A DNA stretch of 45,058 bases from a virus: positions 1 to 45,058 of the IMG/VR virus record IMGVR_UViG_3300021964_000138, one strand, 5' to 3'. Made by a program: the position numbers and the translations under genes. Below are positions 11-24,556 of this stretch, piece by piece (within the stretch, counting starts at the first letter, position 1; every line of letters starts with the position of its first letter). Under the pieces are notes generated by a model. It made no database searches and had not been told where the DNA came from. It saw nothing but the letters and a program-made list of their open reading frames with translations.

Positions 11-3000
11 ATGTTTGATGCAGACTTTTTTAATCTTCCTACCTTAGATGATTTATCCAAAATAACTAAACCAATAGATGCTCCTCAAGTAAAAGAAAGA
101 AATATATTGCGTGGTTTAGGAGAATTTGGTAGTCAATTTGCACAAAGAGGTGCTGAAACTGCAACATTGGGATTAAGTAAATTTGCATTTGGGGAAGCTG
201 AAGAAGCTGAAACGTTAGGGGGTAAAATAGGTGCAACATTAGGTACAGTTGCTGGTTTTATGGCTCCTATGAGTTTATTTGGAAAAGCTGCTAAAGTTGG
301 AGTAAGAGCAACAAGCAAATTTAGTGGAACAAAAATGGTTGAAGAATTAAGACCATGGGCTAAAGAACATTTAAAAGGAAAAGTTAAACATGTAGGAAAA
401 CAAAGAGATTCTCTTGCTCCTTTAACAGCTGAACAAACAGAAAAAATGTTTTTTGACGATGTTGTAGAAAGAGGATTATTAAAGAAGATAGAAGAATTTG
501 GAGCAGATAGAACCTTCAAAACAGTAGTAGATAGAAATAAATTTAGTTCTGATACTATGTTATACGCTGGTAAATTTTTACAAAAAAGAGCTAGCGAACT
601 AGGATTAAAAATTGGAGATGATGTTATTGACCCTAAAACAGGAGAAATAACTAATACTGTTTTAAACAAATTTGGTAGTCAATTTGCAAAAGAATGGGAG
701 AGAGTTGGAGCAAGACCTATTACTGAGTTTCGTCAACAATTAATGAGAGCAGTTCCATTTGGAAACGAAGGAAAAGCATCAGCTAGATTAGCAACAGCTT
801 TAGAAGAAGGTATAGCATTTGCAGCAGTAGAAGGAGCTATGCACGTAACTAATGTTGCTGGAGGATTTCATCAACACGACGGAACAGAAGCTAGATTGGA
901 TGAAATGGATGACGTTTTAGGACAAGCGTTTGTATTAGGTAATTTATTAGGTGTCGGTAGATTTATTCCAGGAGGTGTACAGGGAGGAGCAATACCTAAC
1001 TTATTTACAAAAAGTGGAAGAGCTCAAGGTAAATTATTATTAGGTTATATGCCAAAAATGGCTGATAAATATAATCCTATTGGAACAAACACTGCGGCAA
1101 TAAATGATAGATTGAGTTTGTATAATATGTTTAGACATTACGACAAATTAAAAATGGGCGATGGTCAAATGCGTAAACAAATGAGAACAGCTTTTGAAGA
1201 CCATCCATTAAAAGGAGTATTGCCTAAAGAATTTAATTTTAGCAGAGCTAATATAAGAGAAAAATTACATTTTGGAACTGATGTTGAAAAAGATGCATTA
1301 GGACAAATGTTAAAAGATAATTTAAAAACTGTAGGAACTTACGCTTCAAAAGCATGGAGAAAAGATTTTCCAGCTCTTTTAAGAAAAGATATAGTTGGAA
1401 GTCAATTGCGTATGGGGTATGGTGGTATGGTTTTAGGTGGAGGTCCTCAAGTTTTATTTGATGAAAATATTATGTTTGAAGATAAAATGATAGGATTTTT
1501 AACTGGATATTTTTTATTTAAACATGGTAAAGAAATTAATTTTAAACAAGGTGAAATAAAAGCTGAAGATATGTACGGAAGCTGGAGCGGTTATAAAAAA
1601 GAATATGGTGAGCAAAGAGCTGAATTGCGTCAAATAGGAGAAATGTGGGAAGCTTTAGGCGTTGATTTTGGTCAAGGTCCTTGGGCTAGTATTATTGCAA
1701 GAAGCAGAAGAATGGATGAAACTATAGCTGATAGAGCAGAAGTAAACGCAGCTTTAACATCAACAGAATCAATTCTTAATGTTATTAATCCAATAACAAA
1801 AGATAGAGGTATGAAAGTTCAACAAACAAAAGCTGAATCTGAAAAAATTACAAGAGATAAAGACTATCAAATGACTAATGAAATTCATCAAAACGTTAAA
1901 AAACATTTTGAAAATGAAGGATACATAGAAAGTTCTAAAAAAGAAATTATGGAACTTTCAGAAATGAGTTATAAACAATATACAGATACAATAAAAAATT
2001 ATAGAGAAATGGGTTGGGAGCGAGACCTTGACATACAAATGTCAGTTATGCATACTAAAGTAGAAAGTTATAGCAATACAGGTATAAGCCAAGTCCCTAA
2101 AATTACAGAAATATCTGAATTATTAAAAGATAAAGATGGTAACAGTTATGCAAAAAGTATTTCAAAAGAAAAAGATGGAGCAAATTTATTAGACCCAGAT
2201 GTACAAGGAATATATCAAATACAACAAGTTCCTAGAATTAGAAATAGAGGAAACCTTACTTTAGAACAATCAGATGCTATAGAATGGTATAATAGACACG
2301 TAGAACATACTAGTCTAATGACACAAAGTTTGCGAGGTGGGGCAAAAGTAGAACTTAAAGGCGAAGTAAAATTAAAAGAAGATGGTACTGGTTTAAATAG
2401 ATTTGTTAAAGCAGTACAAGACATGAAAGAATCTTTTGAATTAGATTATCATAAAAACTTAGAAGTAGAAGCTGATAGACAAATTTTGTATAACAATTCT
2501 TTATTTAGATTTAATGCTGAAAATTTCAATTATGTATTAGAAGCAAATAGATTTAAAAAATTGTTTAAAACACTTTCAAGCGAAAGCACTATAAAAAATA
2601 AAAGAGAGCAACAAGTGTTAGAGTCTTTAAAAGCTTTATATGAAGTAGATAACGCTAATGTATATCATTCAAGCTTAAAAGAATTTAAAGATGCTGATTA
2701 TAATCAATTAAATAAAGGTGAAAAAGCATTTTTTAAAAATATGTTACCTTTAATATCAAGACTTGGAAACACAACTGAAATCTCACAAATCAGAAAAGAT
2801 AAATTATCATCTATTGACAAAGCAGAGGTTAAAAAATTAAAAGAAATATTTGAATCTGAAGGATTTAATTTAATTAGTTCTCCTAAAGAAATAGGTGCAT
2901 TTTTCAAATCAGATATGACAGATTTATTATTAAGAGAAGATATAAGTATGTTTCCTATGCCAGACGGAGCAGGTGGGACTAGAGTTAGCACTATTAATGA

Positions 3001-22496: not shown

Positions 22497-22512
22497 AGGT
22501 TCCTCCGTCTAT

Positions 22513-22541
22513 AATATAATAATTTATCAGGTTATAGTCAA
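22513..22541 (-). promoter_or_regulatory. Sigma70-type promoter for the Cas4-like gene
   Basis: On the - strand TTGACT (22541-22536) is followed after exactly 17 bases by TATATT (22518-22513), each one mismatch from consensus, and then by the ribosome site and ATG at 22496. It is the best host-type promoter I found in the leftward unit. It would allow the nuclease and downstream recombination genes to be read independently of the genes upstream. Confidence 0.6.
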
Positions 22542-22559
22542 TACCTTTTCAGGCTATAG
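22527..22559 (-). promoter_or_regulatory. Direct-repeat operator overlapping the promoter
   Basis: On the - strand the 11-mers CTATAGCCTGA (22559-22549) and CTATAACCTGA (22537-22527) differ at one base and are spaced 22 bases start to start, two turns of the helix. The second lies within the -35/-10 spacer. This is the layout of a cooperative repressor or activator site. The HTH protein encoded just upstream (22623-22889) is an obvious but untested candidate to bind it. Confidence 0.42.
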
Positions 22560-22622
22560 AGGGCTGTTGTTCTGGAGAACTGAACCATTTAACTCTTTAC
22601 TCAAAAAGCACCTATCTATTAC

Positions 22623-23212: not shown

Positions 23213-23734
23213 TTAAGGTTGAAATGCCCATGGTTTAACTGGAAACCATAGTCTTGCTTTGTTTTTCAAAGTTCCATTTTTATTTATATCTTGATGAAAT
23301 ATATAATAATTTTTCTTCAACGTAAATCTTGTATCAGTCTTAAATGGAATAATTTTAGTTTTAGGTATAAAATAATAAGGCTTATCGTTTTGGTCTTTGT
23401 GTAAAGATAACCAAGATACTTTAGTAAACTTATTATCTATTAATCTCCACATCAAATAACGTGGAATAGCATGTAAACTTCTATAACGTTTTCTATACTC
23501 TTTAACTTCATCTGTTACTACTATAGTATCATCCCACATAATATGGAACTTTTTTGTTGCGTCTTCATAATAATCATTGAGAGTTATATGATATGTATAC
23601 TTACTACTAAATACTACCATGTAATATGTTCTACTATGTTTATCTTTAGCTTTTCTAGCCCAAGCCATAGATTGTAACGCTGTATCATAACCTTGACTAC
23701 CGCTTTGTATAAATGGTGCTAATAAATCTTTCAT
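23213..23734 (-). CDS. Hypothetical protein, 173 aa
   Basis: A basic, aromatic-rich protein (MKDLLAPFIQSGSQGYDTAL...). It contains a beta-rich region (TYYMVVFSSKYTYHITLNDYY, about 41-61) and many Tyr, Trp and Lys residues up to the end (ARLWFPVKPWAFQP). I do not recognise a family or catalytic motif. Its start overlaps the 40-aa gene (TAATG). By position it is among the first genes of the leftward unit, where phages often keep host-takeover proteins. Confidence 0.72.
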   Translation of the reverse strand: MKDLLAPFIQSGSQGYDTALQSMAWARKAKDKHSRTYYMVVFSSKYTYHITLNDYYEDATKKFHIMWDDTIVVTDEVKEYRKRYRSLHAIPRYLMWRLIDNKFTKVSWLSLHKDQNDKPYYFIPKTKIIPFKTDTRFTLKKNYYIFHQDINKNGTLKNKARLWFPVKPWAFQP

Positions 23735-23856
23735 TACATTCTTCCGTGTTTAGCTAAATACTCTTGTATTAATTTAGGAAGCTTGTGTAAACCAACTCTT
23801 TTAGCTTGTTCTATTAAAGCTGATTCTATTTTATATACTGCTTTTCCAAATTTCAT
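23734..23856 (-). CDS. Small basic protein, 40 aa
   Basis: Short frame with GAAGG 5 bases before the ATG and a TAATG overlap with the next gene. Sequence begins MKFGKAVYKIESALIEQAKR and continues through one amphipathic helix to a basic end (YLAKHGRM). The overlap and ribosome site argue for a real gene. It is the first coding sequence after the structured region at 23909-24186. Confidence 0.65.
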   Translation of the reverse strand: MKFGKAVYKIESALIEQAKRVGLHKLPKLIQEYLAKHGRM

Positions 23857-23908
23857 GTCTACCTTCTTTCTTTTATCTATTGTTGTTATATATTAAAATA
23901 CGTCTATA

Positions 23909-24186
23909 GTAGGATTACGCATTGGGAAGCTATCCCCCTACAATACCTATAAGATACACCTGCGTTTTCTTTTTAGGTATCTTGATTAGCATAGGTTTGC
24001 TCAGTCATTTGACCATTGCCTAACTACTTGAATGTTCTTTTGGACACTCAATTGCCTCAAGGTGGATTATGCATGGTGTTACATTGTTATCCACGAATAT
24101 AGCCGCATTTTAATTCTTGAAATTAAAGGGACAAGACGAGGTAAATGAGATATACTACTAACTGATATTAGGTAGAGTCTCGCCCC
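23909..24186 (-). ncRNA. Long structured non-coding RNA region
   Basis: The 338 bases between the 40-aa and 63-aa genes hold no credible gene but a chain of hairpins. In - strand order: 24186-24177 with 24137-24128 (10 bp) enclosing a bulged hairpin at 24155-24175; 24127-24121 with 24115-24109 (7 bp); 24094-24089 with 24067-24062 (6 bp); 24051-24044 with 24035-24028 (8 bp); 23983-23977 with 23957-23951 (7 bp); and 23941-23937 with 23913-23909 around a small inner stem. Three pairs in the 10-bp and 8-bp stems are G-U only if the - strand is the RNA; on the + strand they would be A-C mismatches. No known RNA class recognised. A replication origin is an alternative. Confidence 0.5.
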
Positions 24187-24194
24187 TTAAATAT

Positions 24195-24386
24195 TTAATC
24201 ATTTAATTCTAGTAACATTTTTAGTGCTTCGATACGTATTTTTAAATCTCTATCAGTTATATTATTAATTAATAACCTACGCATTTTTAAATCACTCATA
24301 GATACTCCGTAGTATTGTTTATATAATGTTCTATAATCACTAAATAATCTATCTCTACGTTCATATCCTAATTCATAATAAGTCAT
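24195..24386 (-). CDS. Small hypothetical helical protein, 63 aa
   Basis: Begins MTYYELGYERRDRLFSDYRTLYKQYYG with GAGGT upstream of the ATG. The sequence is Arg/Tyr-rich and helical, with a repeated Leu pattern in the second half (RRLLINNITDRDLKIRIEALKMLLEL). A DNA-binding role is possible from the charge. The start lies after a 10-base direct repeat (two AACTAAGAAA-like copies, about 24399-24420). It ends 8 bases before the structured RNA region. Confidence 0.65.
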   Translation of the reverse strand: MTYYELGYERRDRLFSDYRTLYKQYYGVSMSDLKMRRLLINNITDRDLKIRIEALKMLLELND

Positions 24387-24504
24387 ATCTACCTCTTTTC
24401 TTAGTTTTTCTTAGTTTATCCCCATGTTATACACATATCTATATATAAATATGGTATTATATCTCTACTTCTTCTTCTTTTAATATATAAGAGTAGAAAC
24501 AATA

Positions 24505-24541
24505 CAAAAAAAGATATAAAAGGGTAGCATTACACTACCCT
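24505..24541 (-). terminator. Rho-independent terminator
   Basis: On the - strand AGGGTAG pairs perfectly with CTACCCT around a 7-base loop (24541-24521), followed by a T-rich tract with seven consecutive T. It lies 16 bases after the stop of the 104-aa gene, so that gene is probably a separate transcript. Confidence 0.8.
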
Positions 24542-24556
24542 CTCATACTTACGGAG

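Follow-up and report, generated by a model that had tools for sequence, protein, structure and literature searches.

Phage cis-acting antitermination RNAs, such as HK022 put and EAR, are located where an early operon begins. GOLLD assembles into a 14-mer RNA cage, has no known function, rises in expression during lysis and is often found near tRNA islands (PMC12286853). The locus described here lies in the record of a marine bacterial virus (IMGVR_UViG_3300021964_000138) whose whole analysed stretch of 45,058 nucleotides is called the window below, and no tRNA genes were found in the window. We have identified in it, within 338 bases (23857-24194), two RNA-like elements, A and B, and with a probability of about 0.6 we read them as two parts of a leftward early transcript, A being a regulatory hairpin and B a discrete RNA that substitutes for GOLLD. 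The surrounding features are the following.

24514-24548, minus strand: terminator-like hairpin and T run, separating the upstream 132-aa gene from the leftward unit
24456-24483, minus strand: predicted promoter-like site TTAAAA-16-TATAAT from a consensus scan, inside a block conserved in relatives
24195-24386, minus strand: 63-aa ORF ("gene 2"), the first to follow the promoter-like block, RBS GAGGUA, homologues of 37-100% identity in relatives
23734-23856, minus strand: 40-aa ORF directly downstream of B, with a homologue (82%) also in the GOLLD-type loci L008 and L009

The 338 bases run from the stop of the 63-aa gene (24195), for which no family match was found, to the start of the 40-aa gene (23856), both read leftward. 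An earlier note, made from the letters of the window, had called this stretch gene-free, and this holds: the minus strand carries ORFs of 20 and 24 aa only, and no reading frame is common to the 12 homologues of the B region, where loop indels of several lengths occur, so that B as a protein-coding sequence was rejected. For the minus strand the folding energy is -82.2 kcal/mol (z -3.7, with 0 of 100 shuffles equally good), and the plus strand folds more weakly (z -1.9). Among 133 windows of 338 nt across the genome, taken as a control, the mean z was -0.8 (sd 1.3) and several coding windows reached -3.5 to -5. Such scores are too common in this genome for folding energy to be decisive; the z-score was therefore dropped as sole evidence, and the case rests on comparison and covariation.

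Relatives were collected through the neighbouring 173-aa protein, giving ten IMG/VR contigs, and through the adjacent metallophosphoesterase (MPE), giving 80 loci, and all of those found are metagenomic phage contigs. With TerL as query, the best matches in phage records were below 25% identity and none was found in GTDB contigs, from which a 23-base B pattern was absent as well. A DNA similarity search of the phage collection with 23857-24194 returned one match, by chance, and the pattern ATCCACCTTGAGGCAAT for B also matched L096 and L106 by chance. All-against-all clustering of the spacers collapsed into one component because the promoter-like block is common to them, and it was replaced by element profiles. 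No report of A or B was found in the open-access literature (bioRxiv itself and subscription papers being outside the scope).

The comparison divides the stretch into two separable elements, A (roughly positions 1-84 of the query) and B (roughly 71-338), which are contiguous in the window and together span ~300 nt. In L033 a stretch of ~320 nt, element D, separates the two, and in L040 A followed by D occurs without B; the single RNA that the earlier note had proposed thus gives way to two. The structure of B is composed as follows.

23892-24114, minus strand: element B, a branched RNA of ~225 nt with 12 distinct homologues, matched by covariance model R1 at 261-289 bits
24114-24104/23902-23892 and 24102-24098/23908-23904, minus strand: closing stem P1 of B
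24094-24089/24067-24062, minus strand: hairpin P2
24061-24054/23990-23981, minus strand: P3, branched, carrying two hairpins
24051-24044/24035-24028, minus strand: P3a
24027-24024/23994-23991, minus strand: P3b
23980-23976/23947-23943, minus strand: P5
23941-23937/23913-23909, minus strand: P6
23936-23933/23927-23924, minus strand: P6b
23917-23965, minus strand: pseudoknot of ACGCA (23965-23961) with UGCGU (23921-23917), 95% of cells paired

B is a new RNA family with a solid covariation model. Its 12 distinct copies, all within one uncultured phage group (the window's copy is also that of L003), align on 71 pairs in 12 helices with 99.4% of the cells paired. Both sides have changed at eight pairs in five helices, pseudoknot included, against a mean of 2.5 for shuffled alignments and 0-2 for slid structures; cells with a double change number 20 versus 4.0 in the shuffles, of which 0 of 500 were as high. 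Thus GUAGG/CCUAC becomes GUGGG/CCCAC in L056, L064 and L098, AUACC/GGUAU becomes AUACU/AGUAU in L056, and in the pseudoknot a C-G pair becomes U-A in L064 and L098. The gapped columns fall at 18 unpaired positions and 0 paired ones. Since the copies are 84-100% identical, several helices (P1, P2) hardly vary. The earlier note's picture of a hairpin-rich structured RNA is in this way borne out by covariation. That an AT-rich spacer folds by chance, a view for which the similar z-scores of several coding windows could be quoted, is refuted by the same covariation and is further opposed by the gap placement and by the conservation of B (~89%, versus ~75% for the core genes), leaving it a negligible probability.

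The block at 24420-24485, conserved in the phage group, holds the promoter-like site and a DnaA-box-like word, TGTGTATAA, and lies near the local minimum of cumulative GC skew; variants of TGTGTATAA are repeated in L005 and L036. Possibly, this block is a replication origin. Its DnaA-box-like word and the nearby turning point of the GC skew are also what would favour a structure working as DNA, either as an origin or as a single-strand hairpin. Read on the leftward strand, however, the alignment of B has 69 G-U cells and 0 A-C cells, as expected for an RNA of one strand; since this strand had also served for choosing the structure, the count is supporting and not independent. The direction that the earlier note had drawn from three such pairs is thus maintained across the alignment. 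Moreover, the first base of the DnaA-like word in P2 is variable, and the element that takes the place of B in sister phages, GOLLD, is a known RNA, all of which makes a DNA role very improbable.

When 23857-24194 was scanned with cmscan against all 4227 Rfam families, at gathering and at relaxed thresholds, no match was obtained, antitermination and riboswitch families included. This negative covers the covariance models of ROOL, OLE, HEARO, raiA, tmRNA, RNase P and group I intron; ARAGORN found nothing either. The earlier note was accordingly right in setting aside tmRNA, RNase P and group I intron, and right that no known large phage RNA fits the stretch itself, yet it missed GOLLD in the same slot of close relatives. 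The GOLLD model found nothing in the window at E<=10, nor in a scan of short regions. B has the genomic position of GOLLD, with flanks 94-96% identical, but at ~225 nt falls short of a length of ~800 nt or more. B as a cut-down GOLLD was rejected, as the GOLLD model on a B genome and the B model on GOLLD loci revealed no kinship either way. In L054 (431-513, minus strand), a weak alpha_tmRNA match of 21.3 bits (E 0.023) lies below gathering.

In the members examined, terminase genes read rightward come first. They are followed by one gene read leftward, a hairpin resembling a terminator (scanned for in the window only), the promoter-like block, gene 2 (sometimes two), the slot and further early genes. 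The slot measures 0.9-1.2 kb in most relatives without B. GOLLD (RF02032) is found there in 16 of 50 records at 106-141 bits, over the full model length (positions 1-416), and in L005 at 90 bits; the slot of L069 is 97% identical to that of L055 over 908 nt and has a GOLLD profile match. With 90-141 bits, these matches do not reach the gathering score of 150 bits, but their E-values are 1e-21 or lower, and 14 control genomes gave no RF02032 match at the threshold used for the 50 records. Because all the GOLLD copies of the phage group (L004-L011 and other loci) stay under 150 bits, standard annotation misses them.

No locus and no record, among them contigs of 47-72 kb, was found to contain B together with GOLLD. 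In a DNA tree of terS and MPE with 31 rows, at least five changes between the B and GOLLD states are forced by well-supported branches, and the window's group stands beside a GOLLD carrier. The closest comparison is that of L043, with B, and L072, with GOLLD: their DNA is 93.7% identical in the left flank, 96.4% in the right flank and 95.6% in the promoter gap, and both share the same A-type hairpin, while the slot holds ~240 nt of B in the first and ~830 nt with GOLLD in the second. Judged from these aligned loci and from the tree, B replaces GOLLD at the slot. In L043 and L060, B is 97% identical and the core genes 77%; B being far closer than the core genes, it moves as a cassette. L036 and L040 have neither B nor GOLLD, so that the function is either dispensable or filled by other RNAs (C, D).

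Further RNA-like elements were observed in the relatives. Element C, conserved and free of ORFs, is an RNA of ~150-200 nt that precedes A/B; six of its pairs show double changes, and the window has no copy. It is located at L010:4230-4420 (plus strand) and L060:3540-3770 (minus strand), and also occurs in L022, L033, L040, L056, L062, L063 and L064. C, A' and B are direct neighbours in the L056-L064 group, where they make up ~515 nt of RNA. Element D (~230-320 nt) lies between A and B at about 2670-2990 (minus strand) of L033, where it has no Rfam match, follows A without B in L040, and in L036 is near an A-type hairpin, again without B. L036, L076, L083, L086 and L090 have, upstream of terS and in or close to the slot, further stretches of 0.5-1.2 kb that lack ORFs and match no Rfam family, and it is possible that these are further RNA families. 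Upstream of the 249-aa gene of the window, in the region 22497-22622 (minus strand), lies a 66-bp segment that recurs with ~95% identity directly after B in L097 and L098. Finally, at about 2840-2870 (minus strand) of L040 the first ~16 bases of B (AGAATTAAAATACGGC) are joined directly to the downstream leader, in what appears from the junction to be a clean loss of B.

The slot might then be a recombination hotspot for unrelated RNA cassettes, where B and GOLLD share an address and not a function and B is, for example, a decoy or an anti-defence RNA. The presence in or around the slot of unrelated conserved elements without ORFs (C and D, with others in L036, L076 and L083), the movement of B between distant clades and its clean loss from L040 are in line with this, and the mutual exclusion of B and GOLLD could be a simple competition for one insertion site. 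Yet stacking, which is possible among C, A, D and B, never occurs between B and GOLLD, and we regard the hotspot as a somewhat unlikely explanation.

Element A lies at the other end of the stretch.

24126-24188, minus strand: element A, a hairpin (arms 24188-24177 and 24137-24126) that immediately follows the stop of the 63-aa gene
24138-24146, minus strand: anti-RBS part of the A loop, AUUUACCUC, complementary to GAGGUAGAU at 24395-24387

A folds with a z of -3.3 on the minus strand and -0.5 on the plus strand. An A-type hairpin follows gene 2 in most relatives, B-type and GOLLD-type alike, and persists where B is missing. Its stem sequences are unrelated among relatives (GGGGCGAGAC/GUCUUGUCCC, GAGGGAGUAGG/CCUACUUCCU, GGGCGUGA/UCACGCUC, GGCGCAUC/GGUGCGCC and others). 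The loop AUUUACCUC forms a 9-bp run with the RBS of the 63-aa gene, tied for the longest among the 47 window genes, and the loop changes together with the RBS of the flanking early genes: AUUUACCUC goes with GAGGUAGAU in the window, UAGUUCACUUC with GGAGUGAACUA in the clade of L043 and L072, UUAUGUCUUACCU with AGGUAAGACAUGG in L005 and CUUUGCCUCUUU with AAAGAGGCAAAG in L032. In 12 representatives, where the loop is complementary to the flanking RBS and tracks it, the longest Watson-Crick run averages 9.0 bp with the own genes versus 7.0 (sd 0.37) with swapped ones, a value reached in 0 of 20000 permutations. Several of these runs are individually within the range of shuffled loops, so that the support is collective, and L009 is an exception to the tracking. 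This co-change suggests that the A loop acts in translational control, in cis or in trans; perhaps, A is also a processing site.

B is situated near the head of the leftward unit, as the earlier note had proposed for the stretch; the unit is ~12 kb long, and B comes just behind the conserved promoter-like block. This location would fit a cis-acting leader of the early transcript, be it an antitermination RNA like HK022 put or EAR or a translational or riboswitch-like leader. No promoter or terminator of its own was identified for B, which could therefore act in cis as an mRNA leader, and genes with RBSs follow it directly with no terminator in between. Nevertheless, the genes downstream of B, the next one included, differ between its carriers, and this speaks against a single-gene switch; the switches in the tree replace B by GOLLD, which has no known cis action; and no antitermination or riboswitch family was matched. 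Taken together, a cis-acting leader seems unlikely.

Under our preferred reading, a regulatory hairpin followed by a discrete RNA, early leftward transcription from the promoter-like block would produce gene 2, A, B and further genes on one RNA. Standing at the 3' end of gene 2, the first small gene, A would pair through its loop with the RBSs of the flanking genes, damping or timing their translation, and might be a cleavage site freeing the downstream RNA. B would fold, be released from the mRNA and act in trans, on its own as an RNA, in GOLLD's place. Considering that B sits in the GOLLD slot and that the replacement occurred repeatedly, its likeliest role would be that of GOLLD in these phages. 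That B evolved independently as a compact stand-in for GOLLD, doing the same job and perhaps self-assembling too, is put forward tentatively, at less than even odds.

Compared with described systems, A resembles cis antisense and anti-Shine-Dalgarno hairpins in having a loop complementary to RBSs and co-changing with them; it differs from them in lying 3' of its best-matching gene and preceding a large RNA, an arrangement for which we found no described family. It provides a testable rule, namely that the loop tracks the RBSs of the flanking early genes. B shares with HK022 put and EAR its place at the start of an early operon, but it is larger, pseudoknotted and exchangeable with GOLLD, the sequence comparison with those RNAs having been made through Rfam only. 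ROOL and B are both structured phage RNAs without a known protein partner (for ROOL, PMC12286853), of different size and fold, with no Rfam match at any threshold used. GOLLD (RF02032; cryo-EM in PMC12286853) is the nearest counterpart, as both are phage-encoded structured RNAs in the identical slot between the same genes of sister phages, yet GOLLD measures ~830-1100 nt in these phages and B, at ~225 nt, about a quarter of that, and neither sequence nor covariance models, applied both ways, relate the two. The exchange suggests that selection keeps the slot rather than the GOLLD sequence, and close phages swapping GOLLD for a 225-nt RNA of unrelated fold amount to a natural complementation experiment. 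If B does substitute functionally, sister phages differing mainly by this swap would reveal the purpose of GOLLD.
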